The notes under the pieces are model-generated. The model made no database searches and had not been told where the DNA came from. It worked only from the letters and a program-made list of their open reading frames with translations. Shown piece after piece: positions 1,024-56,108 of a stretch of DNA of 64,000 bases. Within the stretch, counting starts at the first letter, position 1; every line of letters starts with the position of its first letter. Source of the stretch: an uncultured Gammaproteobacteria bacterium (GTDB lineage: Bacteria > Pseudomonadota > Gammaproteobacteria > HK1); assembly GCA_958295835.1 (NCBI GenBank), contig OY282378.1, forward strand, positions 1,071,001-1,135,000. Direction: 5' to 3'. The position numbers were made by a program, and so were the translations under genes.

Positions 1024-4000
1024 ATGTCCGCTACCACATCCGGTCTTCCGACCTCTCTCACACCTGACGTACTCGCGCAGGTTCTTCGCTATGAACCACG
1101 CCACTGGAAAGCGATCACGCCTCGTCTTGTGAGGGAGTGCCCGGATGTTTGGGAACATATCCAGCTATCGGACGACGATTTCTATACGAAGCTCCACACG
1201 CTTCTTAAAGATCCGTTGAATCGACGAGCACTTGAAATCGCAGCACAAAAAGGAAACACCAGAAATCGTTCTCTCACGCTTTGTGGAGCAATCCACAAAT
1301 ACTATTTCAAGTCGTTGCGAAGTGATCCGTCCCTGGCAGATCGATTGTCCGAGAGATTCGATCCGAAAGAGATTATTGATGTCCTGGCGAGCTGCGACGA
1401 TGATGATCGTCTTGCGAATGTTGTTTGGACGTTTGCCGAAAGTGGGGAATTGACGTACGCCGATCTTTCGGATATCACTAACAAATATCCCGGAGTTCGT
1501 ACGCGCTTGGCAGGTACCGTGATAGGCGTCGAAGTGGCCGCACCAGTAGGGATTCGATGGTCGGCGTGTCTTTCCCGGATGAGAGACGCACTCAAGAGAG
1601 CCGAGAAACACGGACCGGATTCGAAGGTTCTCGAATTTCTTGCAGGTTGCAACAACGAGCTTCGAGAGATCGCCCGCGAATCCGAACACTTCTCGAAAAT
1701 CATTGCCTTGCTTAAGAATCTGAGAGATGAACATCAAAACGTATTTTCCGACCACGAATCGCTGGCGCCATATGTTCGTATGGTGGATGAAGGAACACCC
1801 CTCAGCATATTTCCCCCAAATGCCGGTGATTTGGTGGAGGAGATCGGTCAATGCCTTGGTGAACTGACCCAAGTCACTGCCGATTTTCATCAGATATCCT
1901 TCGCGAATGCAAATGCAGATCAGAGAATTCGATTGAGGGAAGATATAAAGAATCTTGATAAGAAAGAGACGGATATCCATACCCGAGTAAAACAATTATT
2001 TATGGAGTTATTTCCAGGGAATGAGCTTGACGTCAAACCACCAACGACTCAGGTAGACGTGGTGGAATCTCCCAATTCTGGAAAGTGCGAAGATCTCGAT
2101 GATCCTGCGGTCGTGAAGGAAACCTTCGAGTCACCTGTATCCGTTGATTTGGACGGGGATGCAGCAAACATGCCGCGACATGCAGACGAGGAGGTTGTTC
2201 CGCTTCAATCCGCGTTGAGCGGTACCGAGGGCGCTACCGTACCGCCGTCGGCAGATGCCGCGCACCCGGGGGCAGACCGTAGCACCGAAGGGGCAGAATT
2301 GCTGCACGAAGAGACCACGGTGGTACCCGTTTCTACTCCGACAAAGAGCGACCACCAAACTGGCACCGAACGAAAAGCAGACCAGGGTTCCCTTACGGCC
2401 GCGAATGTGGACAACGGGAACTTGGAGTCATCCTCCCATCGAACAATGCCCCCAAAGGCTGATTCGATTTCTTCTGATTCCGTTTCTGATGGTGACTTGC
2501 GCCGAGATACCCCCCCGTTTGACACAGCAGATGTTATCGATGCGATGCTGAGTTCCGGTCGGTTCGCACGGGCATATTGGCTGGCTTATGCTGACGATTC
2601 CTTCGGCGATCCCATACTTCTGGGTGCGCTTTGCGAAGGTGCTCGCATCGGGCCGGGGGATTCGTGTCCCGGTGTACTGATCCAGTTCTTCGAAGCTCTT
2701 GTGGAGAAAGACGAGTGGACCGACGACGAGCGGCTGCTGCTTTGCGCGGCAATAATAGGTCCTAGCCTCTTCGCGGATCCACTGCCACAGGGAATCTATC
2801 AATTGATCGGTCAGCTATCGGTTGAGAGTTCATCGCTTGGAACAATGATGCAGAAAATTCGAGATCTATGTGTTTATCAGAATATGAAAATTCATCCCGA
2901 GGATCTCGGGGTTGAATCGGTCGATAGATCCAGTGGAGCCCGGCTTGACGAACTCGCGAACGATGCACAGGCATTTCTCGATCGCGTTCCTCACATTCGT
3001 TTCGCGTATGCTCCCGCCAACCGAGCTCTCCAGTCTCTCTACCGCGCCGATTCCGATTGGCATCGACTCCACACCATAGTCGGCAAAAATCAGATCAATC
3101 GCATCAAGGAAGCGCTTCTTCTCCTAAAGAATCTTGACCCGGCAAACACAGTCACATCTCTCCATGAAGAGGCAGGGATCGTTAAACAACCTCTTGAAGG
3201 AAGAGCCCGTGACAAGCTGGTCCGTCATCTGCACGACACCATCGGCCTTGCCGGAGAGTGGATCCGGCTCACCGGTACCAGCATTGGTAGTCGCAGACAC
3301 ACAAACGAAAATCGGGTCGAAGAACTCCGTCGCTCACTTCAGGTTTTGCTCCCACAAGCCCGGAAAGCGCTGAAGCCTGCCAAGGGCCGCGGTCCAACCG
3401 ATGCGCTCGACGGTGTGCTTGAAGATGTGGAGGCACGTATTAATGGAATGCAGGTCACAGACCGACCATCTCTTGTCGGTGACCTTCTTCTCCTGCCGGC
3501 CCTGCCACTCGAAGACGATCTTGAGCCGACAGATAGCGACCTTAGTCAGTTGCGTCGTGCCGTTCTGGATGCCGTGTATACGGAACCGGAACCGAGAGTC
3601 ACCTTGGACGAATGCCTCAACCGTCAAGAGTATCGACGCGCACGAGAGATCATCCATCGTTGTCAGCTCGGCAAGCAATCACGTGATGACTATGATAGGG
3701 CAGTAGCGGACAAACGGTCGAGCTTAGAGACCATTCTGAAGGAACTGGAAATCGAGATCGAGGACGCATTCCTTCTAGGGGAGCTACGCCAGCACACTAC
3801 AGAGCAAGAGTCCGACGACAACTCGAACCGCAACGCCCTTGAGCGTAGTCAGTTGCTCAGCGTCGTGAGGGAAGCTAGAGCCAAGCTCGACAAAACCAAC
3901 GAACTGGAGGCGGACGGACTCAGGGGGATCACACGAGACGTTGGTGAAGTATCAAGTAAGATAAAAGATATGACGTCGGAACGGCGGGATCTGTTACATC

Positions 4001-6207
4001 GCGAATTTCGGCGCATCATGGATCAATTTCCCAAGACCGAACAGGGCCGAGCAGACAGGGATTATCTCAACGAAGCATTCAAGGAATGCTTCAGTAACAA
4101 TGACGATGTCGCCGCTTTCGAACTTCTCGATCGGGGGCGGCAGGCGATCCAGACTATCGAACCGGTCGCACGCGCATTGATCGGCAGCAGTGAGAACCTT
4201 GAACGATTCCTGAAACGAGCAGACGAATATCGAGAGGTACTCACGGGAAGACGTTGGCTTCCTCAGATTCAGGAAAAGATCCGTGAAGGAGATACAGTAG
4301 CGGGCATCCCATTCGGCCAACTGGACAACGCGCGTCGGGACGAGGCTGCCAGCAGCCTGAAGGCTTGGCACTCTTTGGCTTCTCTTCGACTCTCGAGCGC
4401 TCACGGTGAATTGAAGCACCTGATGGACGTGCTCCTCCGATTTGTTGGCCTGCCCTTGGTAACGAATGGAGTCGATGTGGCGGATACCACGGAGGACGGA
4501 TTCGCCCACGTTCGCGTAAAGCTCGCCAGACCGATAGTGTCTTCTCCACTGCCTGCATTCGGATCTGCATGTAGTAACCGTTATGAAGTCGTCGTCAGCC
4601 AGAGGCGCATGGAACCGCAGCAAATCGCAGAGTATATTCGCGGGCGCAGACTCGCCGATAAATCCGTTCTTGTGTACCTCCTGCCACCGGAAAGCCTGCA
4701 ATATCGTCTGCGTTGGCAGCGCCATTGCGTCCGCTCGCGGCTCACTGCACTTCCCCTGGACCTCACCTTGTTCCTTCATCTGTGCGGAGTACGTGATCGT
4801 TTTCCTGTTCTTCTTGGGATCGGCCTCCCTTTCACATGGTCGTGTCCATACATCACCAAAGGGGAAAATGTTGCTTCGGAAATGTTCGTGGGTAGAAGCG
4901 ACGAGGCGGATACCTTGATGGCTCAGACGGGAAGCTGCATTGTCTTCGGTGGGCGGCAACTCGGAAAATCCGCTCTCCTTCGGCATGTGCACCGCGAGAA
5001 CCACGACCCTGGCACATCGATCTATATTACTTACCTTGATGTGGACGACCTCGGAAGCGATTCACAGGACCATGATGCGATGATGGCCGTGTTTTGGCGG
5101 CGCGTCTACGATGAGCTCCATCGGGACGGTGCGATTCCAGATCAACCACGGAAGGTCCTTGATCGAGGGAACCGGCTGATCGAGGAAGTGCAGAACAGCA
5201 TTCGTACCTGCCTGGAGGAGAACGTGAGCATGCGAATCGTGCTGCTCCTCGACGAGTCGGACGACCTGCTCGACTGTGATTCTGGTCGGGATTTTACACT
5301 TGTGCGCCGACTCCGTGCCCTCATGGCAAGTACCGAACGCCGATTCAAAGTGGTTTTCGCAGGGCTTCAAAGCGTTCAAAGGTACAATAGCTGGAAGAAT
5401 CATCCGTTCGCCCAGCTCGGATCGGAACTAGTCGTGAACCCACTATCTCCGGTTGCAGCACAGGATCTCATCATTCGACCGTTGCGAGCGCTTGGCTTCT
5501 CCTTCGGGCGAGCCGGATTGATCCTCAGAATACTTTCCCAGACGAACTACCACCCAGGTCTTATCCAGATCATTTGTTACCGGTTGTTGGAGAATCTATA
5601 CGAGAAGCTGATACGGCGAGAGCAAGATGGCCCGATACGACAAATTACGGACGATGACATTCTCGCAGTCGAGCGCGATGCGGCAGTTATGGAGGACATC
5701 CGAAACCGGTTCGATTGGACGTTGGATCTGGACGATCGCTATAAAGTTTTGACATACGCACTTGTTCTTACTCCAGATCCCTCCGCTCCACATCTCGAAT
5801 CCGAGTTCATGAGCATCGGTGGAGACTGGTGGCCTGCTGTCTTTGAACCAATGGATGCTCAGAGCCTGCGCGCTGTCCTGGACGAAATGGTGGGGCTTGG
5901 TGTGCTCTTGAGAGAGGATGAAGATGAAAGCGGCCGCCGTCGATATCGTCTCAGGAGTCCGAATTTATTGCGTTTACTGGGGCCACGGGAGGCGATTGAC
6001 GACGAGCTCGAAAGGATTATTTCGCGCGACCAAGTAAGCCGATCCAATCCGAGGAATTTTCATCCGATAGTCGATCGAAACCTGCCAGTTGCATTAAATT
6101 TCTACCCATACATGCGTTCACTGCACGAAATACGGGGTTTTCAGGCCGAAGCAGCGTGCGGCTCAAGTTCACTGCCAGTGAGGATAAGCCACATGCGATA
6201 TTCTTGA
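1024..6207 (+). CDS. Giant multidomain AAA+ ATPase, 5' part of an IS-interrupted gene
   Basis: As it stands the frame encodes about 1727 residues; authentic sequence ends at 6080, where an IS1380-type element enters, and the last 42 residues are IS-derived. The N-terminal ~370 residues are alpha-helical with no recognised family. A low-complexity acidic linker follows (about 370-510), then a long helical/coiled-coil middle. An AAA+ module starts at about residue 1288 (MFVGRSDEAD) with Walker A GGRQLGKSALL (~1310), Walker B VLLLDESDD (~1405) and a winged-helix-like tail (RRYRLRSPNLLRLLG, ~1645). The ATG at 1024 is preferred over 1018 because AGG lies 7 bases before it. GC is lower than in the flanks, suggesting transfer. 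The 3' part is at 7746-8790, and an HEPN-like partner follows at 8795. Probable conflict-system ATPase; the exact family was not recognised. Confidence 0.8.
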   Translation: MSATTSGLPTSLTPDVLAQVLRYEPRHWKAITPRLVRECPDVWEHIQLSDDDFYTKLHTLLKDPLNRRALEIAAQKGNTRNRSLTLCGAIHKYYFKSLRSDPSLADRLSERFDPKEIIDVLASCDDDDRLANVVWTFAESGELTYADLSDITNKYPGVRTRLAGTVIGVEVAAPVGIRWSACLSRMRDALKRAEKHGPDSKVLEFLAGCNNELREIARESEHFSKIIALLKNLRDEHQNVFSDHESLAPYVRMVDEGTPLSIFPPNAGDLVEEIGQCLGELTQVTADFHQISFANANADQRIRLREDIKNLDKKETDIHTRVKQLFMELFPGNELDVKPPTTQVDVVESPNSGKCEDLDDPAVVKETFESPVSVDLDGDAANMPRHADEEVVPLQSALSGTEGATVPPSADAAHPGADRSTEGAELLHEETTVVPVSTPTKSDHQTGTERKADQGSLTAANVDNGNLESSSHRTMPPKADSISSDSVSDGDLRRDTPPFDTADVIDAMLSSGRFARAYWLAYADDSFGDPILLGALCEGARIGPGDSCPGVLIQFFEALVEKDEWTDDERLLLCAAIIGPSLFADPLPQGIYQLIGQLSVESSSLGTMMQKIRDLCVYQNMKIHPEDLGVESVDRSSGARLDELANDAQAFLDRVPHIRFAYAPANRALQSLYRADSDWHRLHTIVGKNQINRIKEALLLLKNLDPANTVTSLHEEAGIVKQPLEGRARDKLVRHLHDTIGLAGEWIRLTGTSIGSRRHTNENRVEELRRSLQVLLPQARKALKPAKGRGPTDALDGVLEDVEARINGMQVTDRPSLVGDLLLLPALPLEDDLEPTDSDLSQLRRAVLDAVYTEPEPRVTLDECLNRQEYRRAREIIHRCQLGKQSRDDYDRAVADKRSSLETILKELEIEIEDAFLLGELRQHTTEQESDDNSNRNALERSQLLSVVREARAKLDKTNELEADGLRGITRDVGEVSSKIKDMTSERRDLLHREFRRIMDQFPKTEQGRADRDYLNEAFKECFSNNDDVAAFELLDRGRQAIQTIEPVARALIGSSENLERFLKRADEYREVLTGRRWLPQIQEKIREGDTVAGIPFGQLDNARRDEAASSLKAWHSLASLRLSSAHGELKHLMDVLLRFVGLPLVTNGVDVADTTEDGFAHVRVKLARPIVSSPLPAFGSACSNRYEVVVSQRRMEPQQIAEYIRGRRLADKSVLVYLLPPESLQYRLRWQRHCVRSRLTALPLDLTLFLHLCGVRDRFPVLLGIGLPFTWSCPYITKGENVASEMFVGRSDEADTLMAQTGSCIVFGGRQLGKSALLRHVHRENHDPGTSIYITYLDVDDLGSDSQDHDAMMAVFWRRVYDELHRDGAIPDQPRKVLDRGNRLIEEVQNSIRTCLEENVSMRIVLLLDESDDLLDCDSGRDFTLVRRLRALMASTERRFKVVFAGLQSVQRYNSWKNHPFAQLGSELVVNPLSPVAAQDLIIRPLRALGFSFGRAGLILRILSQTNYHPGLIQIICYRLLENLYEKLIRREQDGPIRQITDDDILAVERDAAVMEDIRNRFDWTLDLDDRYKVLTYALVLTPDPSAPHLESEFMSIGGDWWPAVFEPMDAQSLRAVLDEMVGLGVLLREDEDESGRRRYRLRSPNLLRLLGPREAIDDELERIISRDQVSRSNPRNFHPIVDRNLPVALNFYPYMRSLHEIRGFQAEAACGSSSLPVRISHMRYS

Positions 6208-6261
6208 ATCTTGTGCAAGGTCGTACGGAGTCATTTGTGAAACGAATGTAATAGAGAGAAA

Positions 6262-6328
6262 CGTGGTCTCCGAAGCTGGTACAATAGTTGTCTCTCAAAA
6301 CAACGTACCAAACGAAACGGAGACCACG
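6262..6328 (+). promoter_or_regulatory. Long hairpin just upstream of the transposase start
   Basis: CGTGGTCTCCG (6262-6272) and CGGAGACCACG (6318-6328) are perfect inverted repeats, and the inner part adds GGTAC/GTACC and GTTGT/ACAAC pairs. The structure ends 3 bases before the transposase ATG at 6332. Such hairpins commonly shield transposase translation from read-through transcripts; that role is inferred. Confidence 0.5.
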
Positions 6329-6331
6329 AAG

Positions 6332-7708
6332 ATGAAACATAGCAGAGCCGACGTTCGAGGTAAAGCTACGCTGGGCCTCGACATCCGATTCGAATCGCAG
6401 AGCCTGACATCGTATTCGGGACTCATCGTCTTTCAACACCTCTTCTCTCTCATCGGCATCAAAGAACGGTTGTGGCGATGTTTCCGCCACCTGAAGGGTA
6501 GTCCGATTTACGGTCATCACGTGGTCATGATGCTGCTGGTCGTGCACCTGATTATCGGACACCGGCGGCTGCGCGACGTGGACTACTACCGTGATGACGA
6601 GATGGTCAAACGGATTCTCGGTCTGAAGCGGTTGCCGGACGTGTCCACGCTCAGCCGGTCGCTCGCCAGTGCGGATGAACAAAGTGTCGCCAAAGTACGA
6701 AGTGAATCGAGACATCTGGTCATGGAGCGTTTGGTGGTCGAGGGGTTTCCGAGAGTGACGCTCGATTACGACGGGTCGGTGTTGAGCACCGGGCGACATG
6801 CCGAAGGAACCGCAGTGGGTTTCAACAAGAAAAAGAAGGGCGCGCGCAGCTACTACCCCCTCTTTTGCACCGTCGCCCAGACCGACCAGGTCCTCGACGT
6901 TCACCATCGTCCTGGAAACGTACACGACTCCAACGGGGCCGACACCTTCATCGGCCACTGTATCAGCCATGTGCGCTCGTGCCTTCCCCACACAAAGGTA
7001 GAGACTCGCATCGACAGCGCATTTTTCAACGAAACCATCGCTGAACGACTGCATTCGTCGGGGGTCGAATTCACCATCTCGGTGCCTTTCGAGCGCTTTG
7101 CCGCCCTCAAGGAACTGGTCGAAGGCAGAAAACGATGGCGACGCATGGCGGTCGGGCTCGATTACTTCGAGACCCGCTGGAAGCCGAAGTCGTGGAACGC
7201 CCGCTATCGCTTCATCTTCATCAAAAATCAGGTCAGATGCCAACACAAGCTGCCGATCCAACTCGACCTGTTCCAGCCCACCGAATACGGGTACGAATTC
7301 AAGGTCATCGTCACCAACAAACGAATGGCCCCACGCAAGGTCGTCGCCTTCCACGAAGGCCGCGGTTCGCAGGAGGGTATCTTCGCCGAACTCAAGACGC
7401 ATTGCCAGATGGATTACATACCGGTCAAGACCCGGGTCGGCAACCAACTGTACATGTTCGCCGGCATTGTTGCTCACAACCTTACCCGCGAGTTGCAGAT
7501 CCAACTCAATCCTCGCGCCCGTGGCACCACCGCAAAGCGCGCCGCGCTGTGGTGTTTCCGGGAGATTGGGACCCTTCGCCGTACCCTCATCCAACGCGCC
7601 GGGCGCATGATCCGCCCCGCCGGCAAATTGGTCCTCTCCATGAACAGCAACGAAAGGCTCGAAAGAGAACTCCGGCAGGCTCTTGCAACACTGAACGCCG
7701 TCGCTTGA
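6332..7708 (+). CDS. IS1380-family DDE transposase
   Basis: This 458-residue protein has the layout of IS1380/DDE group transposases: an N-terminal helical region, the first catalytic Asp in VTLDYDGSVLS, an Arg-Ile-Asp-Ser-Ala-Phe-Phe segment (second Asp) and the acidic residue in HEGRGSQEGIFAELK. It catalyses cut-and-paste movement of its own element. The ATG at 6332 is preferred to upstream GTG codons because they lie inside the hairpin. The frame is intact, so the element may still be active. Confidence 0.9.
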   Translation: MKHSRADVRGKATLGLDIRFESQSLTSYSGLIVFQHLFSLIGIKERLWRCFRHLKGSPIYGHHVVMMLLVVHLIIGHRRLRDVDYYRDDEMVKRILGLKRLPDVSTLSRSLASADEQSVAKVRSESRHLVMERLVVEGFPRVTLDYDGSVLSTGRHAEGTAVGFNKKKKGARSYYPLFCTVAQTDQVLDVHHRPGNVHDSNGADTFIGHCISHVRSCLPHTKVETRIDSAFFNETIAERLHSSGVEFTISVPFERFAALKELVEGRKRWRRMAVGLDYFETRWKPKSWNARYRFIFIKNQVRCQHKLPIQLDLFQPTEYGYEFKVIVTNKRMAPRKVVAFHEGRGSQEGIFAELKTHCQMDYIPVKTRVGNQLYMFAGIVAHNLTRELQIQLNPRARGTTAKRAALWCFREIGTLRRTLIQRAGRMIRPAGKLVLSMNSNERLERELRQALATLNAVA

Positions 7709-7745
7709 CTATATTTGTCGCACGTTTATGCAACAATCGGGGAAA

Positions 7746-8790
7746 GTCCCTTATTTTTGGACCTCTGACCAACGAACAACAGGGTCGGATCAGTGGCCAT
7801 TCAAGGCCGTTTCATTTATCTATCATTTCGGGTAGCGAAGCGCTTGGGCTCGGTCAAGTCGAGCGACAATTCGATTGGTTGCTGTCGCGCAACAGAGACG
7901 ATGGGGATCAAATGAATCCGATCGACTCCAGATCGAAACCCAATAATTCGACTGATCATGGCCATTGGAAGAAGATTAAACTCAACGAACGAATGCAGGA
8001 AGATGCGTTCATCAAGGAACTTCAGGATGCATTCCGTCCAAGGCGAAGGAACCATCGATACGCTGTCGTCCGATTGGGGGAGATCGAGTTCGCAGGAGAG
8101 CTCTCCGCCCTGTTCGATCGGCTCATAGGAGCTTTCGGACAATTTTGTACGAACGAGTCCCAAGGCCATCTCGTAGTGCTGTTGAATCCATATGAAACTT
8201 GGTTGTGGCTGTGCGACCGGTGTCGGGAACGTGTACTTGCGCAATCAAGGGTGACAGGATTGGAGCTTCGGAGATGGAGCGATGGCGCAATCGCGAATGC
8301 GTTCGACCAAATCGGTGCACGGACCGGAAGCAAGTTTGCAGCCGACGAAGTATTCGCGAGAACTTCCGGATTTCACTGGCTTGTAGACGAGGGTTTGCGC
8401 CGGACCAAACCGCGGCAGAGCGCAAACGCGGAGAATCTTGTCAAAGACTGGGACGAGTTGTGTAGCGCAGCACTCGCCGAAGACAGTATCGAGGCTGCTC
8501 TGACGGCCCTTGGCCTGCGCGGATCGGATGAAACACTCGAAAGGAGCGTCTTTGAAGTCCTGCGACTCACGGAACCAAGAGATGGGAACTTCATACTTGT
8601 GGAGGAAAGTTTCGATCTCGCGGCGGAGGAGCTTGGTAACCAGGGCCGTACCTTTTTGGACAAGAACATTGTACAGATCAGGGAATGGATGTGTGCCATG
8701 GATCTTGCTCGGCCTGGCAACATGAGTGACGATAGCTCGATGTTCGTAGCAACTTGGGTGCGGGATTTGTTGAAATCCGCAGGAGCCTGA
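7746..8790 (+). pseudogene. 3' part of the IS-interrupted giant ATPase gene
   Basis: This frame carries the last ~347 codons of the ATPase begun at 1024. Directly after the IS the translation reads SLIFGPLTNEQQGRISGHSR, a natural continuation of the winged-helix tail, in the same frame as the 5' part. It ends with RDLLKSAGA and a stop 4 bases before the next gene. There is no recognised domain; the region around 8040-8300 looks like a compact alpha/beta segment (YAVVRLGEIEFAGEL, LVVLLNPYETWLW). Without the 5' part it has no obvious start, although an internal ATG at 7912 could give a C-terminal polypeptide. Confidence 0.75.
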
Positions 8791-8794
8791 CGCT

Positions 8795-10000
8795 TTGCTT
8801 AATCCATCGGAGCTTCCGGGAATTCGGAGGCTTGCATCGGAAGTGTTCGCTGGGCTCGGTGAAGGATCGCTGGTGTCGGTCAGTGTTCCCTGTGGGCCAG
8901 GCGGAACGCGTTGGCTTGCGTGGTTCATGGAAGCCATTCGCCGTCTAGCTCGGGAGCATGGGGAACCGTTACCAATCGAAGGATCCGTACTGCCTGGTTC
9001 GGCCAAGGACCCGCTTGCGGAACTAGCTTCGATCGTCGGCGCCGGTCAACTCCGGAATCTCGATGAATTGCTGGAGTACTATCCGGATGACGGTGCATTG
9101 GTTGTCGTGATCGAATGTGAACAGTCCCTCGGAGGACAGTGGAAGAATTTCTTCGACGCTGTGCGCCGTGCCTGCCGCGCGGCCGGTTCCCGTATGCTTC
9201 GACCTGTACTGGCGATAATTGTCGGTTCGCGGGAATTCCCGCCGATCACTCATGATGTCGGCAGCAAAGTGTTTGCCCTGTGGAACACCGTGCGATGGGA
9301 AGAACTGAGACTTCTTGCGGATGCTGTGCTGCCACAAGGCGAGAACGCTCTTGTCCGTGCTTGGCGAATGGCGACGTACGCGGGCGCCGCGAACGGCGAC
9401 CCGGAGGTCCTTGTTCGCCTCTGTCGAGAGTCTCCCGATCACCTGGATCGAGTAGTTGCGTTGGGATTCGACGAAGCAGGTCCAAAGATCGAGTTCGACT
9501 TGGCGATACGCACTATGCCGGAACGGCGATGGAGTATCCCACAGACTGCTATCGAACCTTGGGCAGTAGGTAATTTGCTTGGATACACAGTTGAACGTGG
9601 TCCAATCCTGACCACTAACGGGATGACGACGGAAAGCGGAAGTCGCTACCTCCGTGCTGCGATTTGGCGGGAACAGCTCACGGGTCTGTTTCCCGTGACG
9701 GTTGAACTTGGGTTCAATGCCGCTGCAGCGATTAACTCGGCTATGGGGATGCGTTGGCAACAGGCGATCCCTCCTGGGCGGAAGATCTCTGACAACGATT
9801 TTCGACTTGATCCGAAGGAAGTCATGGAGATTTTCGCTACCGGACGATTCGGACGGGTTCCTCAATCGATCTGGAGTTTCCTTGATTTGCTTCGGCGAAC
9901 CCGCAATGATCTCGCACACATGTCTCCCGTGGATCTACAGAGAATGCGACAGATATGGCAGGGGCACGATCTGATAAGCAGACGGTTCGGCAAAGCGTGA
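8795..10000 (+). CDS. Uncharacterised protein with C-terminal HEPN-like motif, ATPase partner
   Basis: A 401-residue protein starting at TTG 8795, 4 bases after the ATPase stop, with AGGAG about 10 bases upstream, so it is almost certainly in the same operon. The N-terminal two-thirds reads like a P-loop-type alpha/beta fold without a clear Walker A (strands ALVVVIECE and RPVLAIIVGSRE). The C-terminal ~110 residues include LLRRTRNDLAH at about 364-374, which fits the R-x4-H catalytic motif of HEPN ribonucleases and follows the amphipathic helix expected there. In known conflict systems HEPN proteins are RNA-cleaving effectors or their sensors. Inference: effector or adaptor activated by the upstream ATPase. 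The family was not recognised. Confidence 0.7.
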   Translation: MLNPSELPGIRRLASEVFAGLGEGSLVSVSVPCGPGGTRWLAWFMEAIRRLAREHGEPLPIEGSVLPGSAKDPLAELASIVGAGQLRNLDELLEYYPDDGALVVVIECEQSLGGQWKNFFDAVRRACRAAGSRMLRPVLAIIVGSREFPPITHDVGSKVFALWNTVRWEELRLLADAVLPQGENALVRAWRMATYAGAANGDPEVLVRLCRESPDHLDRVVALGFDEAGPKIEFDLAIRTMPERRWSIPQTAIEPWAVGNLLGYTVERGPILTTNGMTTESGSRYLRAAIWREQLTGLFPVTVELGFNAAAAINSAMGMRWQQAIPPGRKISDNDFRLDPKEVMEIFATGRFGRVPQSIWSFLDLLRRTRNDLAHMSPVDLQRMRQIWQGHDLISRRFGKA

Positions 10001-10626: not shown

Positions 10627-13083
10627 CTATTCGGCTCCTGACGGCTCTCGACCGCTTCCGCCATCGGGACCATCCGCCCGCCCCGCCGCGGCCAACACAT
10701 CCACTCCCCGCAAATGCAGATCGCGTTGCGGGAACGGGATCTCGATGCTTCGTTCCCGGAACAACCGCACGATCTCGAACCGTATCTCGGTGCCGATGCG
10801 GAACACCTTGTCGGCCTGCGGGACGAAGCAACGCAGCTCGAAGTCGAGCGAGCTGTCGCCGAACGCCGTGAACAGCACGAAGGGCTCCGGATCGCGCGTG
10901 ATCTCGGGATGTGACGTGGCGACCTCGAGGAGGGTGTCGCGCACGAGGTCGACGTCGGAAGCGTAGGAGACCCCCACCAGGACGTCGATCCGGGCCACCG
11001 CGTCCTTGTGGGTCCAGTTGACCAGAGCCGACGAGAGCAGCTCGGAATTGGGGATGATCACCGACGATCGATGGAAGGTCTGGATCTCGGTGGCGCGGAC
11101 GTTGATCCGCTGGACATAGCCCTGATGCTCGCCGATGACGATCCAGTCGCCGACCTTGACCGGACGCTCGACGAGCAGGATCAGCCCGGAGACGAAGTTG
11201 TTGACGACGTTCTGGAGCCCGAACCCGATGCCCACCGAGAGCGCGCCGGCGATGATCGCGAGGTTCGAGAGGTCGATGCCGGCGGTCGAGATGCCCGCCG
11301 CCACCGCGACGAGGAGCCCGGCGTATCCCACCGTCGTCTTCAGCGAGTTGCGTAGCCCGGCGTCGAGACGGGTCTGGGGAAAGACCCGGGTTTCGAGGAC
11401 GCGCTGCAGCCAGCGGGTCGCCACGAGGAGGGCGGCGAAGACGATGGCGGCGAACAGCAGGTCGGTGATGGAGAACCGGAACGAGCCGATGCGCACCCCT
11501 TCCGCCGCGTCCGCGAGCCATCCCCGGAGGTCGGCCCAGGCAAGGCCCCAGCTCATCAGCAGGGCCGCCGCCACGACCAGCGCGAGCGCCATGTCGGTCG
11601 CGGCAACGAGCCAGAACCTCAGCCTCGTGTCGCTGTCGGGCAACGGCCCGCCCTCGGTGCCCGCGCCACGCCCGGCGAGCGCGAGGGTGATGGTGTCGCG
11701 CGCGACGCCGTGCACGATCACGGCGAGACCGAGCACGACGACGGACTTGACGAGGCTGGTCACCAGGTAGTTCGCGAGCGCGTCGAACCCGGCGAGCGAC
11801 AGGAAGGGGATCGAGACCGCGGCGAGCGCGGCCATCGTCCGCAGCACCTTCCCCGGCCGCGACGGACCCCGGCGACCGGACGCCGGGCCGGCCGGAGGGC
11901 CGGACGGTGCGTGCCCGGGACTGTGCATGGGCGCGTGCGATGCCTCGCGGCGGCGCCACAGGCGCCCCGGCAGCAGCAGGAGGATGAATCCGGCCCCCGC
12001 GCAGTGCGCGAGCATGCGGTAGAACAGCACGAGCTCCGGGGGCACCTCCAGATGGCGCGCGCTCGCGTACTCGATGAAGAGCAGCCCTCCGACCAGAAAC
12101 GCGAGTGCGAGGGTGCGGTGGTAGAGGCCGCGCGCGCCCTCGCGGGTGAGCGGGGCGAGCCGCCAGCCGTCCGGCGAGTACGGTGCGAAGGCAGCGCGCG
12201 CGAGTCCGGCGGTGAGGAAGAGCCCCGCCAGTACGCTGAACGTTGCGACGAGGACGTCGCCGGCGATTCCCCGCTCGAAGGGGACGGAGAGCAGGAACGC
12301 CAGGGGGACGAGCCCGATGAGCGAGGGCAGGGCGCCCCTCGCGACGGCGACGAGGACCGCGGCCCGGACCCGGTGCGCGAAGAAGGGTGCCTCGACGTCC
12401 CGGTCGCGGACGTAGCGCCGCAGCATCCAGCGCCGGGCCGGGACCACGAGCACGATCGTCAGTACGAGGGCGGGGAGGAACAGAACCCGCGGGTCGGTCC
12501 AGCGCTCGCCGCCGGAGGTCGGGAACCACTTGTCGAACGGCGCGGCCGCCAGCTTCCGGACGATGCCGAGTGCATGCGGCCCGGCGTTCATGAGCACCGT
12601 CCACGACAGTGGCGACGGACCGCGTTCCAGGAGGCGCCGCGCGGAGCGCTCGCGTCGTGCCTCGGCGATGCGGGCCAGCATCTGTCGGGCTCGGAGCGAA
12701 ATCAGTTCCGCCTGCTTGACGTGCCCCTCCCGTTCGGCGAGGCGCTCATCGAGGGTCGCGCGCTCCGCCGCGACGGCCGCCGGCTCGGGCGGCCCGTCGT
12801 CGGCCGGCGGCGGGCCCAGGGCGCCGAGAAGCTGCCGCACCGCCTCGGCGTCGGTCGCCGCCGCGACGGCCGCATCTGCGGCCTCGCGCTGGAGCTTTTC
12901 GACCTGCGGGCGGAGCGCCTCGATGACGGCGTGGTTGATCTCCGGCTTGTCGAGCTCGCCGGTGACGAGGTCGAGCAGCAGGCTCCAGTGGGCGGACCGG
13001 CTCTCGACATCGGGCGCCGTGCCCGGGGTCTGTGCGGGCGCGCATACCGAGAACACGGCGCCAAGGAGCAGCGCGGCCGACAT
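10627..13083 (-). CDS. MscS-family mechanosensitive ion channel (DUF3772-type, large)
   Basis: An 818-residue inner-membrane channel that would open under membrane tension to release solutes during hypo-osmotic shock. A signal peptide (MSAALLLGAVFSV...) is followed by a ~150-residue periplasmic helical domain, then about ten transmembrane segments. The C-terminal MscS core is clear: pore helix region SVGIGFGLQNVVNNFVSGLI, beta domain with ERPVKVGDWIVIG, and a soluble C-terminal alpha/beta domain. ATG 13083 gives a clean signal sequence; longer in-frame starts upstream run over the divergent methyltransferase gene. It is divergent from that gene, so the ~150 bp between them hold both promoters. 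A degraded copy of an internal piece lies at 335-477. Confidence 0.9.
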   Translation of the reverse strand: MSAALLLGAVFSVCAPAQTPGTAPDVESRSAHWSLLLDLVTGELDKPEINHAVIEALRPQVEKLQREAADAAVAAATDAEAVRQLLGALGPPPADDGPPEPAAVAAERATLDERLAEREGHVKQAELISLRARQMLARIAEARRERSARRLLERGPSPLSWTVLMNAGPHALGIVRKLAAAPFDKWFPTSGGERWTDPRVLFLPALVLTIVLVVPARRWMLRRYVRDRDVEAPFFAHRVRAAVLVAVARGALPSLIGLVPLAFLLSVPFERGIAGDVLVATFSVLAGLFLTAGLARAAFAPYSPDGWRLAPLTREGARGLYHRTLALAFLVGGLLFIEYASARHLEVPPELVLFYRMLAHCAGAGFILLLLPGRLWRRREASHAPMHSPGHAPSGPPAGPASGRRGPSRPGKVLRTMAALAAVSIPFLSLAGFDALANYLVTSLVKSVVVLGLAVIVHGVARDTITLALAGRGAGTEGGPLPDSDTRLRFWLVAATDMALALVVAAALLMSWGLAWADLRGWLADAAEGVRIGSFRFSITDLLFAAIVFAALLVATRWLQRVLETRVFPQTRLDAGLRNSLKTTVGYAGLLVAVAAGISTAGIDLSNLAIIAGALSVGIGFGLQNVVNNFVSGLILLVERPVKVGDWIVIGEHQGYVQRINVRATEIQTFHRSSVIIPNSELLSSALVNWTHKDAVARIDVLVGVSYASDVDLVRDTLLEVATSHPEITRDPEPFVLFTAFGDSSLDFELRCFVPQADKVFRIGTEIRFEIVRLFRERSIEIPFPQRDLHLRGVDVLAAAGRADGPDGGSGREPSGAE

Positions 13084-36402: not shown

Positions 36403-36530
36403 CCGTGCATGGCCACGACGCAGTGGTAGTCGTCAGCGCAGATGAATTCGACTGCCTTCGCGCAGCGACGAAGATTAGCTTGTATGAGTTATTGCTTAAT
36501 TCGACGATAGATGTACTTAACATTCATAAA
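36384..36530 (+). pseudogene. Second Phd antitoxin remnant
   Basis: The sequence matches the Phd gene at 34850-34960: VTVHGHDAVVVVSADEFDCL and ISLYELLLNST against VTVHGRDAVVVVGADEFDRH and SSLHELLSRSP. The preceding codon has become TAG. It is a duplicate scrap, attached directly to the 3' end of the TIR-STAND gene. Confidence 0.7.
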
Positions 36531-38751
36531 ATCGCTGCTCGATCTTCCTCTCGCTATTATGTGTATTCATATAAAACTGGGTCCGCATAGCCGCAACTCT
36601 GCGAATGAACAAATCGTTCCTGTTCTTCCATAATTCCTTAAGATCAGACAAGATTTTCGTATTCAATTGATTGGCATTGTCGAGTTCCGAGAAGTAGTAT
36701 ATGAGATCATATGCAGGGTTATCTTTTTCACGTACAACTTCTTTCAAAATGGGACGGACCTCGCCTTTATTGACGGCGTCTACAACCATCTCGATGTTAG
36801 TCATTGTCCAAAGGAAAGAGAGCCAAATTAGCTCTCTCTTTATTTTTTTTGAATTGGCCCGTGGATATTTCGCTTCAACCCACCGGGCGAGGGCGTCTAT
36901 TTCATCCACATTACTCAGGATGGCATTAACAACACGGAGGCCGCCATCAGTTATGGCTTCTATGAGATCCTTCAGAGCACGTCTTTCTATATTTCCATGA
37001 CGAATTCGAAGAACTTGGCCAAGAATCCGGTTATTCTTGAGTACCTTTAAAATTTCATCGGCTTCGTACTCTAAATTGGAATCTTCAGAAAAATCCTTAT
37101 GATCAGAATTATTGTCTCGTGATTCCCGTCTCTGCTCTTCAACACTGCTATCAGTAAGTACATTACTTTTCAATGATGCAATCAGCCTTTGGAAACGATC
37201 GGTTTCAGATCGAGAAAGCGTAGCTGGGCGAACATTCTCCAAAGAACACATCGTATTCAAGATAATGCTTTCCAGAATCTCATGATCGTCGGCGTGATGG
37301 ATGACAAACAACAAGGTGAGATGATATCTCTCAACTTCGCTTCGCTGGCACATTTTCTGTAAGGTCAACGCCTCTTTTATACTATTTCGAGCAAGAAAAC
37401 ACCCAAGAAAATAGAATTCCATATAACGGACTCTGAATCCATCTGATTCCTGAAGGATTCCATACCGAGGATGGCACATTCTTTGTATCTGTTCGTCAGA
37501 TATGACAAAGTTTTCTTTATAGGATTGAGTGAATTGATCAAACCAAGTAATGTCAGGCGATCTACCTTGTTCTCGTCTGTCGAATATAGCTTTAGCTAGG
37601 TACTCTGAAAAATTTAGACAAGCGTTTATACTACCATCATCTTTCTCAATACCAGCCTTCATCAATCGACCGAGGATGAAAATATAATAGCAATGTGCAT
37701 GCGAAGTGATATTGGTATCCTGAGGCATGAAAGCTTGTAATGTCTGAATGACAGAAAGAACATAGAATGGATATCTTGGAATAATACGTGTATCCACAAT
37801 TTCATCTATTTTTCTTTCGATTATATCTACCTCTCCATCAGATATATCACGCCCTGTTGTTTGCTTCAAAGTTTTTCGGATCATTTCCTCTTGGTGCCAG
37901 CGATTGATCTCCCGAAGTTGCATCTCTGTATAAGAATAGATTCTTTGGTCAGCATGGTAATAAGTGCGATAAATATCGGTGTCCATAGTAATAATTACAC
38001 GTTGTAAGACAGATCTTTGGGCTTCAAGGAATTTGACTGCGTCTTTGTTCTCAGAAAGACCGTCTATAACAACAAGTTTGTCTGTTTTCCTCAACCAATG
38101 ATCCCAGGATCCAAAGAACTGATCGTGAAAGGTGCGCTTAAATTCTATCAAATTCCATCTACTATTATGTTTTTTAGCATCTATGTACAAGACGGGTTTG
38201 TCTTTTTCTATCTGCCTGATGCAAAGCATTTTAGCAAGAGCAGTCTTACCACTCATGGGTTCTCCGTGAATAACTACCGTATCCCGATCCAAGATCTTAT
38301 CTATGCCAGGAATTTGGCCTTCGAGACTACCTAAATCGGCAGAGCCTGTTCGATCGTAGGATCTCACTCTACCGAAGACATAGCTCGAACTCAGACTAAC
38401 CTCACGATCACCTATAATCTCCGTTTGCTCCAGGAATTGGCGGAAGGTGGATCGAATTGTACAAATTGTTTCGAGATCAGAAACAACATTTTTTATTTTT
38501 TCATATATTTCTGTCCAAGCCTCATCTGTGTTGTGATAAGACAAAAGAGTGGTGGCATCTTTAGGTATGACAAGCAAATCCTCATCCTTTAGAAGATCCC
38601 ACCACGGACAATCGTTAATCAGTAAAGGAATACGCCTTCTTTCAAGACCGGATTCTGTCTCACTTTTGGCTAGCTCGTGTCTGCCAGAAAACCCCCACTT
38701 CCACACGAGCTCTGCGACGCTCCGCCATACTGTCGGCGAGGTTTCAGCCAC
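36517..38751 (-). CDS. STAND NTPase with C-terminal remnant of a TIR domain
   Basis: The frame has 744 codons. Residues ~24-90 (ELAKSETESGLERRRIPLLI, DLLVIPKDA, NTDEAWTEIYEKIK) match the last third of a TIR domain of the kind fused to NACHT/STAND proteins; the NAD-binding first two-thirds are absent. The P-loop module follows: Walker A VIHGEPMSGKTALAKML (~162), Walker B KLVVIDGLSE (~228). The C-terminal ~400 residues are helical and unassigned. The first ~23 residues look like foreign sequence, so the true gene seems to have been cut about 60 bp after the window's apparent start. The DNA is strikingly AT-rich against its neighbours, indicating transfer. Intact relatives act in anti-phage NAD depletion; this copy is probably dead or a decoupled regulator. 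Confidence 0.75.
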   Translation of the reverse strand: MAETSPTVWRSVAELVWKWGFSGRHELAKSETESGLERRRIPLLINDCPWWDLLKDEDLLVIPKDATTLLSYHNTDEAWTEIYEKIKNVVSDLETICTIRSTFRQFLEQTEIIGDREVSLSSSYVFGRVRSYDRTGSADLGSLEGQIPGIDKILDRDTVVIHGEPMSGKTALAKMLCIRQIEKDKPVLYIDAKKHNSRWNLIEFKRTFHDQFFGSWDHWLRKTDKLVVIDGLSENKDAVKFLEAQRSVLQRVIITMDTDIYRTYYHADQRIYSYTEMQLREINRWHQEEMIRKTLKQTTGRDISDGEVDIIERKIDEIVDTRIIPRYPFYVLSVIQTLQAFMPQDTNITSHAHCYYIFILGRLMKAGIEKDDGSINACLNFSEYLAKAIFDRREQGRSPDITWFDQFTQSYKENFVISDEQIQRMCHPRYGILQESDGFRVRYMEFYFLGCFLARNSIKEALTLQKMCQRSEVERYHLTLLFVIHHADDHEILESIILNTMCSLENVRPATLSRSETDRFQRLIASLKSNVLTDSSVEEQRRESRDNNSDHKDFSEDSNLEYEADEILKVLKNNRILGQVLRIRHGNIERRALKDLIEAITDGGLRVVNAILSNVDEIDALARWVEAKYPRANSKKIKRELIWLSFLWTMTNIEMVVDAVNKGEVRPILKEVVREKDNPAYDLIYYFSELDNANQLNTKILSDLKELWKNRNDLFIRRVAAMRTQFYMNTHNSERKIEQRFYEC

Positions 38752-53065: not shown

Positions 53066-54702
53066 AGACTAACCCCTCATGGGGAACGATTACCGGCCCT
53101 GCGGCTCACCGAGCACAAGCGCGCGATCGTCTCCTAACCCCTCATGGGGAACGATTACGCTCACGGGATCAACCATGCCTTCTCCGTTGCAGTCCTCCTA
53201 ACCCCTCATGGGGAACGATTACCAGGACATGATGCGGAAATACAAAATCATGAATCTCCTCCTAACCCCTCATGGGGAACGATTACCGCCAAAGGTGCGT
53301 CCGCGCACTTGGCGCCGGACGACTCCTAACCCCTCATGGGGAACGATTACGGCGCCCTCCCATTCGTCGCTCGCCGAGTCGATGATCTCCTAACCCCTCA
53401 TGGGGAACGATTACGGCAGTTCTATCGCCAGATTCGGGCCGGCGAGAACGACTCCTAACCCCTCATGGGGAACGATTACCTCCGGGCGCGCCTCGGCTCG
53501 GAGCCCAAGGGGGGCACTCCTAACCCCTCATGGGGAACGATTACCGCCAGGAAGCTTAAGCAGGGGCCGCAAGTACGGGAGGCTCCTAACCCCTCATGGG
53601 GAACGATTACGACTTCTGGCGAAAAAACTTCATTGAGAAATACCACCTCCTAACCCCTCATGGGGAACGATTACACGCCGATTCTGCGGGGATGTCCCGT
53701 CCGCGAAGCTCTCCTAACCCCTCATGGGGAACGATTACCCGCCCGGAGCTCGATGATTTCCACTGGCTTGTTCATCTCCTAACCCCTCATGGGGAACGAT
53801 TACCACGTATCCGGTCGCGATAACGGGCAGGCCGCAGCGCTCCTAACCCCTCATGGGGAACGATTACGAGCACCTCCAGCGCTTCCGGCGCACAGTCACT
53901 GAGCTCCTAACCCCTCATGGGGAACGATTACCGTAGCAGTGGCTCCCGTCCGATGCGAGTCGCCATTCTCCTAACCCCTCATGGGGAACGATTACCGTCG
54001 CGACCATTGTCCGCCACGACTTCGCCGGCCTCCTCCTAACCCCTCATGGGGAACGATTACACGGCAGGGCCGGCTGCAGGCGTCCATGTACAACCACTCC
54101 TAACCCCTCATGGGGAACGATTACATCTAAATTCCGTTGCCAACACTCGTCTATGCTCTCCTCCTAACCCCTCATGGGGAACGATTACCGCTTCGTGCCG
54201 GGCCGTGGCTACGTGTTCGATGCCCTCCTAACCCCTCATGGGGAACGATTACCCAATACCGCACGGCGACCAACGCCTTGAAGTGCAACTCCTAACCCCT
54301 CATGGGGAACGATTACCCGCGCGCTGCGCCGCCGCATCCGCCCGGAGACGGCCTCCTAACCCCTCATGGGGAACGATTACATGGACCAAACTTCGCGCCG
54401 CTGTCGGTCAGAACGGCTCCTAACCCCTCATGGGGAACGATTACAAACGACGATTCTTTGCGGCGCAGATATGCGGACGTCTCCTAACCCCTCATGGGGA
54501 ACGATTACCTGGATGCCCCTGTACACCCGCATATGCTCGAGCAACTCCTAACCCCTCATGGGGAACGATTACGCCAACCGCGCCCGAATGGTCCGGGCTG
54601 GATACACTCCTCCTAACCCCTCATGGGGAACGATTACAGTGCGCGCCATTCCGGGTCATGATCGAGATTGCGAGCTCCTAACCCCTCATGGGGAACGATT
54701 AC
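53066..54702 (-). CRISPR. Type I-D CRISPR array, 26 repeats and 25 spacers
   Basis: Repeats are 28 bp and spacers 36-38 bp. On the plus strand the repeat is CTCCTAACCC-CTCATGGGGA-ACGATTAC; the core CCCC-TCAT-GGGG can form a 4-bp stem with a 4-base loop. All repeats are identical except the leftmost (53066-53093), whose first bases are AGACT instead of CTCCT. A degenerate repeat usually marks the leader-distal end, and in minus-strand sense the change sits at its 3' end, as expected. This implies transcription from the cas2 side. Cas6 cleavage at the stem base would leave an 8-base handle, GTTAGGAG. Confidence 0.97.
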
Positions 54703-54831: not shown

Positions 54832-55131
54832 TCAAAGAACATCTGCTCCGTGCAAATGGTGCGCGTGGTCCTCCACTTCCAGAACGCCATTGGATTCATT
54901 CTTTCGCAGTATGGATACCGATATGTTATGACGATTCTCGGAAATGACTTCCATGAGTCTGTCATCGGCCATTGCGACTTTGGAAATCTCTCCGCGCAGT
55001 CTTTTGAGTTCAGACATGGGCAAATCACCGGCGAAGACGGAATTCTGCTCGTGAATCAGGTACTTGGACAGAATCTTTCTGAATTTTTCTGTTCTCTCCG
55101 CCTGTACGTCGTAAGCGATAAGTACATACAT
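54832..55131 (-). CDS. cas2: CRISPR-associated endoribonuclease-fold protein Cas2
   Basis: A 99-residue ferredoxin-fold protein: MYVLIAYDVQAERTEKFRKI with the conserved Asp at the end of the first strand, then SVFAGDLPMSELKRLRGEIS. With Cas1 it forms the spacer integration complex. The start at 55131 is 2 bases after the cas1 stop; the longer in-frame extension overlaps cas1 and does not resemble Cas2. Confidence 0.93.
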   Translation of the reverse strand: MYVLIAYDVQAERTEKFRKILSKYLIHEQNSVFAGDLPMSELKRLRGEISKVAMADDRLMEVISENRHNISVSILRKNESNGVLEVEDHAHHLHGADVL

Positions 55132-55133
55132 GA

Positions 55134-56108
55134 TTACACCTTGCGCAACCATGGCCGGTATGGCGCCAGGGAGAGCATGTGGCGTTCGAGTGCGAACGCT
55201 TGCTCGAAAATCGATGATCTCATGGAATCTTTGCCGTTCGCACGCGTTTCCGTCTTCGATACCCATGCTTGCAGGGTCGCCTGTCTTCCTGCCTGTGAAA
55301 GGCGGCAAACGCCGTTCTCTTGATGAAACCAGTCTTCCCGGAGTCTATTGCGAAGCACAGTCTCGAAGATCAATGTGTCGCATATTGCCGGCTTGAAGAT
55401 TTCGGACAAATCCAGCGCAAGGGAATGACGTGCCTCCCTTGGCGAGTGCAGAAAAGAGATGCTGTCATCCAGATGCGTCTTTGCTATTTCATTTCGAGTC
55501 ATCGTGTACGCCAGACCGTTAAACCAGGATATGAGACAGTTGATTCTGTTGTTGGGTGGTCTCCGCTTGCGAAGTCCGAACTCCAACCTGGTATCGATTA
55601 CGGGCCATGCCATGTAGTACCAACCCTTGGCACTGCCTTCGAATCCCATCAACTCGTTTATAGATTGCGCCCTTGAAAGGTCTTTCCTGATTTTCTGAAT
55701 CTTGTCGATGAACGAATCGACTTCCGTATTGCCACGGTAGGAACGATAGCGCAGATTGACGATCATATTGCCGAGAGCACCCTCGACAAATGAGCGCGCC
55801 AGGAACATCGCTTTTTCCGGATCCAGTGCATGTTCTGCCTGCGCGAGACGCACGCGGCCGGCAGCAGGGGAACGCACCGGCTCGAAGGTTCCGGAAACGT
55901 TGCCGTACCAATCCAGAACTGTGACGCGAACGCCGCTTTTCCCGAAAAGACTGAGGAGTCGCGTCGTCAGTCCAGCCTCACCTGTAACCACTACGTGCCT
56001 GAGACCGGATACTGGAATGCGTCGCTTCGGTGTGTCCGGGATTCGTACGAGAAGCGTGGATCCCTCTCTCGCCAGCTTGGCGTCCTTGGTGAGGTACAGT
56101 GTTTCCAT
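55134..56108 (-). CDS. cas1: CRISPR-associated integrase Cas1
   Basis: A 324-residue protein starting METLYLTKDAKLAREG. The N-terminal beta domain (RRIPVSGLRHVVVTGEAGLT) is followed by the helical catalytic domain with the metal-binding residues Glu in ELMGFEGSAKGWYY, His in SFLHSPREARHSLALDL and Asp/Glu in LDLSEIFKPAICD. It integrates new spacers with Cas2. The start overlaps the cas4 stop (TGATG). Confidence 0.95.
   Translation of the reverse strand: METLYLTKDAKLAREGSTLLVRIPDTPKRRIPVSGLRHVVVTGEAGLTTRLLSLFGKSGVRVTVLDWYGNVSGTFEPVRSPAAGRVRLAQAEHALDPEKAMFLARSFVEGALGNMIVNLRYRSYRGNTEVDSFIDKIQKIRKDLSRAQSINELMGFEGSAKGWYYMAWPVIDTRLEFGLRKRRPPNNRINCLISWFNGLAYTMTRNEIAKTHLDDSISFLHSPREARHSLALDLSEIFKPAICDTLIFETVLRNRLREDWFHQENGVCRLSQAGRQATLQAWVSKTETRANGKDSMRSSIFEQAFALERHMLSLAPYRPWLRKV

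Follow-up and report, generated by a model that had tools for sequence, protein, structure and literature searches.

What did the sequence on either side of an intact IS1380 element encode before the element arrived, one gene or two, and what would the product have done? The element lies near the left end of the window (the whole 64-kb stretch of DNA analysed here, positions 1,071,001–1,135,000 of a single-contig 5.73-Mb genome with a contamination estimate of 5.5%). An insertion of this kind is ordinary in itself, and annotation pipelines would give two hypothetical fragments here; the rejoined halves lead to a family of giant ATPases. Our preferred reading, to which we give a probability of about 0.62, is that an IS1380 element jumped recently into a linker of a giant STAND/ORC-type gene, and that the intact two-gene module to which this gene belongs is most likely an anti-invader system. 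The features of the interrupted gene are as follows.

1024–6080, + strand: giant ATPase gene, 5′ part, with a long helical/coiled N-terminal region, a low-complexity linker, an alpha/beta domain, a predicted active AAA+ domain and a winged helix; open frame of 1685 codons from the ATG at 1024, aligning end to end with homologues L004 and L005
6077–6080: GAAA target-site duplication (4 bp), left copy; duplication of the same size at six of seven full IS copies
6081–7741, + strand: IS1380-family insertion sequence, 1661 bp, with imperfect terminal inverted repeats; seven full-length copies in the genome, one of them 100% identical
6263–7708, + strand: IS1380 transposase, intact, 481 aa (NCBIfam NF033539, 231.5 bits against a cut-off of 180; Pfam DDE_Tnp_1_4, E=2.9e-40)
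7742–7745: GAAA target-site duplication, right copy, read in the sequence
7746–8790, + strand: giant ATPase gene, 3′ part, with a conserved PLTxxQ block, a second P-loop-like domain lacking Walker A, and C-terminal alpha/beta and helical elements; 57% identical to the L004 C-terminus

An IS1380 element within one reading frame

A search of the genome against itself finds the 1661-bp unit in seven full-length copies, six of which are flanked by exact 4-bp duplications, each different (GAAA, TACG, TAAA, TTGC, TTTG and TTAC); with several copies of the same length each carrying its own duplication, the boundaries are exact and do not reflect a chance match. An independent demonstration of the 4-bp duplication comes from one copy nested within an older, 93–96% identical copy (genome G000:C1 4828727–4832054; L012, L015 and L016). 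The first-pass annotation had bounded the 1661-bp element by the GAAA pair at 6077–6080 and 7742–7745, which is present and with which the other copies agree, and had described its 14-bp ends as matching; inverted repeats are indeed there but they are imperfect, with 10 of the first 14 bases and 12 of 17 bases matched, so that this description is slightly overstated. A DDE transposase, terminal inverted repeats and the 4-bp target duplication together place the element in the IS1380 family. The copy at genome position 644474 is identical to that in the window over all 1661 bases and has TACG as its duplication. This identical sister copy, and the fact that both halves of the gene are still open, support a recent insertion, as had been proposed from the sequence alone. 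It had also been called reversible, which is true of the in-frame rejoining in silico; there is no sign that the element excises precisely.

The element and one GAAA copy amount to 1665 bp and the frame is kept: flanks joined by script form one stop-free frame of 2033 codons from the ATG at 1024, which is the start used by the homologues (2035 codons from the ATG at 1018). The length and same-frame join originally claimed therefore hold, counted from ATG 1024. As the locus now stands, the frame of the 5′ part runs on into the element for 42 residues and meets a stop at 6207, and the 3′ part (7746–8790), which has neither a stop nor a frameshift relative to L004, is cut off from its start. The two halves have the same GC content, 53%, against 62% for the window.

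Two genomes of the same family carry the gene uninterrupted, as whole-length alignments show (L004, 57% identity; L005, 55%). Both read NPRNFHPIIDRKPVAFGPLTNEQ at the junction, where the window reads NPRNFHPIVDR / KSLIFGPLTNEQ, and the residues DRK/PLTNEQ are closely matched between them and the window across the insertion point. In a profile search over 80 further loci, 81 of 83 homologous reading frames span the junction, and no frame has a start of its own at the 3′ half. Of the two exceptions, one stops at a contig end (L066) and the other at a frameshift upstream of the junction (L109). We considered L109 (6179–12300, from Paraburkholderia graminis) as a natural split and rejected it, as the frame runs on through the junction; the upstream frameshift is either a mutation or a sequencing error. 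It had been set out beforehand that uninterrupted homologues should be sought over the junction, and that a 5′ half ending naturally, or an independent 3′ half, would speak against a single gene: the first are abundant, and neither of the others occurs among the 83 frames. The insertion point itself falls in the variable linker that joins the winged helix to the near-invariant PLTxxQ block, and the earlier placement of the end of the 5′ half just after the AAA winged helix agrees with the AlphaFold model of an intact homologue (see below).

The giant ATPase and its HEPN-type partner

Three further features bear on what the gene and its downstream neighbour would encode.

4927–5379, + strand: AAA+ (STAND/ORC-type) ATPase core, Walker A GGRQLGKS, Walker B LLLDES (Pfam AAA_22, E=1.9e-5, residues 1304–1454 counted from the ATG at 1018)
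8795–10000, + strand: partner gene, intact, 401 aa, with an inactive ORC/STAND-like AAA N-terminal domain and a C-terminal HEPN-type domain, as modelled by AlphaFold and at a conserved adjacent position
9902–9919, + strand: RNDLAH, the R-x4-H HEPN active-site motif (partner residues 370–375), with R370 and H375 identical in 47 of 47 partners

Pfam returns only a weak AAA_22/AAA_16 match for the giant. When 23 homologues drawn from many phyla are aligned, the Walker A GGRxLGK, the Walker B DE and a KVVFAGL block are invariant in all 23; the intact Walker A and Walker B motifs are those of a STAND/ORC-type AAA+ protein. The second P-loop-like domain, in the half severed by the element, lacks Walker A in every one of the 23. 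An AlphaFold model of residues 1140–2021 of the intact homologue L004, built using only proteins from the fetched loci (pLDDT 85.4), has an AAA core followed by a lid and a winged helix. Over about 320 residues, its first half matches the archaeal STAND-like ATPases 2qen (Z 20.9) and 2fna (19.8) and the A. pernix ORC2 (19.8), and also NLR resistosomes and CED-4 at Z about 17–18, in a structural search that covered mainly model residues 95–534; Avs3 is among the Foldseek matches. On this model, the giant is an active STAND/ORC-type AAA+ ATPase with a winged helix, followed by an inactive second P-loop-like domain. Profile searches of the PDB returned no sequence relative for either the giant or its partner. 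A weak match to DzbA (Dazbog), with E=0.0037, in the coiled stretch of the window protein is repeated in no homologue and was set aside as a coiled-coil chance match, and matches to MzaA and sigma-70 in single giants of the alignment look like individual fusions or mis-joined frames.

The partner gene begins 5 nt after the giant ATPase stop, and the partner is likewise adjacent to the giant in L004 and L005. Only three columns are invariant among 47 partners (W291, R370 and H375); the R370–H375 segment reads R-N-x-L-A-H, the residue after the arginine being N, D, H or R in the 47, and the rest of the sequence is only about 22% conserved. A C-terminal helical domain with R-x4-6-H and a polar residue after the arginine is characteristic of HEPN proteins. 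Pfam HEPN_Swt1 matches nine of the 47 (best E-value 1.8e-5), although not that in the window, which on its own has no Pfam match. In the AlphaFold model of the partner (pLDDT 83.7, pTM 0.84) the N-terminal domain is AAA-like and the C-terminal one helical. In a search covering mainly model residues 1–296, the N-terminal domain resembles ORC, RFC and CED-4 (Foldseek ORC1, E=5.7e-6), and the GK[ST] Walker A motif is missing in 44 of the 47. By its motif the partner is a HEPN-type protein, and it is a predicted RNase.

The pairing recurs across the family. A partner, about 400 residues long in the family, lies downstream of the giant in about 55 of 82 loci, a figure made up of 51 counted automatically, two of which sit at a distance from the giant, and four hidden by a longer overlapping frame. 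About a third of the giants have no HEPN partner, some of these absences being contig ends, so the pairing is common and not obligatory.

Distribution and gene neighbourhoods

Relatives of the giant were collected by scanning a genome collection with two peptide patterns, which gave 118, of which the best 80 were read; frequencies are consequently rough. They come from Proteobacteria, Cyanobacteria, Acidobacteria, Chloroflexi, Actinobacteria, Armatimonadetes, Verrucomicrobia, Planctomycetes and others. Closer to the window the gene is scarce, being present in three of 143 near relatives and absent from same-genus genomes. Judged by its occurrence in so few near relatives but many phyla, and by its 53% GC in a 62% GC window, the distribution is apparently that of a sporadic, horizontally spread gene. 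No relative was found in viral contigs in two scans (with the AAA core alone and by whole-protein alignment), or in phage records. Plasmid records label the giants ‘hypothetical protein’, ‘ATP-binding protein’ or ‘AAA family ATPase’.

A giant with a HEPN partner is the majority neighbour type among the loci read, although there are several other arrangements. DruE-class helicases are upstream neighbours in 13 of 31 cases. In Rhodobacter-group genomes (L110–L112) a complete DruH–DruE pair lies directly upstream of the giant–HEPN pair, a row that is possibly an extended Druantia III, and in other Alphaproteobacteria DruE and the giant occur together without HEPN. Cyanobacteria have an HKD-Snf2 helicase beside the giant, mostly without HEPN, and Actinobacteria a distinct two-gene set upstream of it. 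In Azospirillum and Microvirga, plasmid-borne giants follow the X, MID and RNaseH domains of pPIWI_RE within one fused protein, and the partner protein there is HEPN-type with an extra C-terminal kinase-like AAA_33 domain (L115 and L117); Bradyrhizobium plasmids have the same arrangement by annotation and profile. The giant AAA core in these plasmids lies within proteins of 3,100–3,400 aa (L115 702–10472, L117 3–10187 and L120 13024–22326), with the pPIWI_RE fusion recognised by Pfam in L115 and L117 and the same annotation in L120. Two single loci are also of note. In L024 (genome G521) an integrase-type transposase-like gene (10753–11634) lies 350 nt downstream of the giant at the expected position of the partner, a possible second IS disruption in the family, and in L005 the intact homologue has a PLD-family gene (11682–13031, − strand; Pfam PLDc_2, with a weak match to DrmC) about 450 nt upstream of it.

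The window pair has an MscS-like fragment upstream and an mscS gene downstream. A 133-bp piece of the neighbouring mscS-type gene is repeated across the low-GC island (341–473 and 12226–12358), in direct orientation and with 87% identity, so that the island has a complete mscS gene on one side and a decayed fragment of it on the other. Further along are a CRISPR array (53066–54702) of 26 repeats (CTCCTAACCCCTCATGGGGAACGATTAC) with a spacing of about 64–66, a nearby Cas2 gene (54832–55308, − strand) and Cas3-like helicase gene (56710–58689, − strand), and, in a pocket of 39–50% GC, an nSTAND3 NTPase gene (36517–38751, − strand) that is probably another acquired defence-type gene.

Proposed function, and relation to known systems

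The insertion, the uninterrupted homologues, the motifs of each domain, the recurrent pairing, the gene neighbourhoods and the exchange of adjacent helicase and nuclease modules are all seen directly; from them we infer complex formation, RNase activity, a phage trigger and the loss of function. A defence role for the giant–partner module is suggested by its domains and gene context, though neighbouring defence genes can simply share a defence island. The giant would serve as both sensor and scaffold, switched by nucleotides: ATP would bind at its one active AAA domain, the winged helix would contact DNA and the long variable N-terminal part would recognise the invader. It would then engage the downstream partner and license it, the inactive AAA-like domain of the partner docking to the giant, and cleavage of RNA by the HEPN domain would arrest or kill an infected cell. 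Elsewhere in the family effectors may be swapped or added, such as the DruE helicase, the HKD-Snf2 helicase or pPIWI_RE. In the window the element has parted the active AAA+/winged-helix half from the inactive second half, duplicating GAAA and ending the protein 42 residues on. Since the element separates these two, loss of function is expected with the effector gene left behind, and the insertion is presumably a recent knock-out of one giant ATPase gene, leaving a broken switch, an intact effector gene and, presumably, an inactive system.

Two alternative functions seem to us unlikely, and about equally so. In the first, the giant is an ORC-like DNA-maintenance ATPase acting in replication or segregation, with a structural partner whose R-x4-H is non-catalytic. 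The winged helix after the AAA domain and the presence of ORC/Cdc6 and RFC among the best structural relatives would fit, but a housekeeping gene is not expected in so few of the close relatives and in none of the same genus, nor beside defence helicases and nucleases, and a non-catalytic motif accords poorly with an arginine and a histidine held invariant in all 47 partners while so little else is conserved. In the second, the HEPN partner is a constitutive toxin neutralised by the giant, as the tight two-gene operon might suggest, and disruption by the IS should free the toxin. The cell with the broken giant and intact HEPN gene was nevertheless viable enough to be sequenced, and antitoxins are usually small. 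A promoter scan for an outward promoter at the right end of the element gave nothing above shuffles, so that the separated HEPN gene has no promoter-like site above chance, though it may simply be unexpressed. HEPN toxins are common in toxin–antitoxin pairs (PMC3710099, PMC7641770), which we count in favour of this second alternative.

We give very little weight to the idea that the element is an on/off switch whose precise excision restores the giant gene: the exact 4-bp duplication, the kept frame, the open halves and the identical sister copy would accompany any fresh insertion just as well, the window locus was seen in no intact allele, and there is no hallmark of directed inversion or excision. 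Misassembly at a repeated element, or two naturally separate genes, is hardly credible in spite of the several near-identical IS copies and the contamination estimate, and is contradicted by the duplicated target site, which is GAAA on both sides where the identical copy has TACG, and by the uninterrupted homologues, the halves aligning consecutively to single proteins in 81 of 83 frames and sharing their composition.

We return to the anti-invader reading. Whether the giant is the core of an undescribed multi-phylum immune class, with a STAND/ORC-type switch and interchangeable effectors (HEPN RNase, DruE, HKD-Snf2, Druantia III or fused pPIWI_RE) and a window copy just inactivated by the IS, we consider an even bet. 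The invariant R-x4-H of the partner, and the recurring links to DruE, HKD-Snf2 and pPIWI_RE, make the family testable as a defence system. PADLOC has no model for the giant, and our literature search found neither a name nor a description for the family, nor a phage-resistance experiment on any member.

Several described systems are similar in part. BREX has BrxC, an ORC/Cdc6 ATPase, together with the inactive STAND domains of BrxB and PglW (PMC12839542), and shares with the giants, in a defence locus, a large AAA+ core of ORC/STAND type that has a winged helix after it and works with inactive STAND-like domains. The giants differ in their length (1,750–2,450 residues across the family) and long N-terminal region; no PglZ, BrxX or methyltransferase was noted beside the window gene, and the 23 giants gave no PADLOC BREX match, including to the BrxC/PglY-type ATPase profile, at E≤0.001. 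The DUF499 ATPases and HmaC (Hma, type-1 BR systems) combine an AAA+ ATPase with a Swt1/Abi2-type HEPN, as here. In DUF499 the HEPN is fused to the N-terminus (PMC12839542, PMC3710099), whereas in the giant system a separate downstream gene encodes it together with an inactive AAA domain, and the giants match no DUF499 or HmaC profile in Pfam or PADLOC. Druantia type III (DruH–DruE; PMC13192584, PMC13316683) is the system that directly precedes the giant–HEPN pair in the Rhodobacter group; neither DruE nor DruH lies beside the window pair, and no PADLOC Druantia model recognises the giant. Avs and other STAND NTPase sensors have the STAND-type AAA core and giant size in common with this family, but the effector of the giant system is in a separate protein and there is no PADLOC Avs match. 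The giant–HEPN combination was not found described in the literature searched; that a STAND-type protein can control a separate effector is, as a kind of mechanism, known. Lastly, the three-gene pPIWI_RE systems (PMC3702460) supply the X, MID and RNaseH domains fused to some giants, the RNaseH and MID domains being absent from the window protein and present as fusions in its relatives. The pPIWI_RE operons, in the parts of their description consulted, carry an REase and a DinG helicase, with mention of neither AAA nor HEPN (PMC3702460), and the fusion would place an Argonaute-like protein and a STAND-type switch on a single polypeptide.
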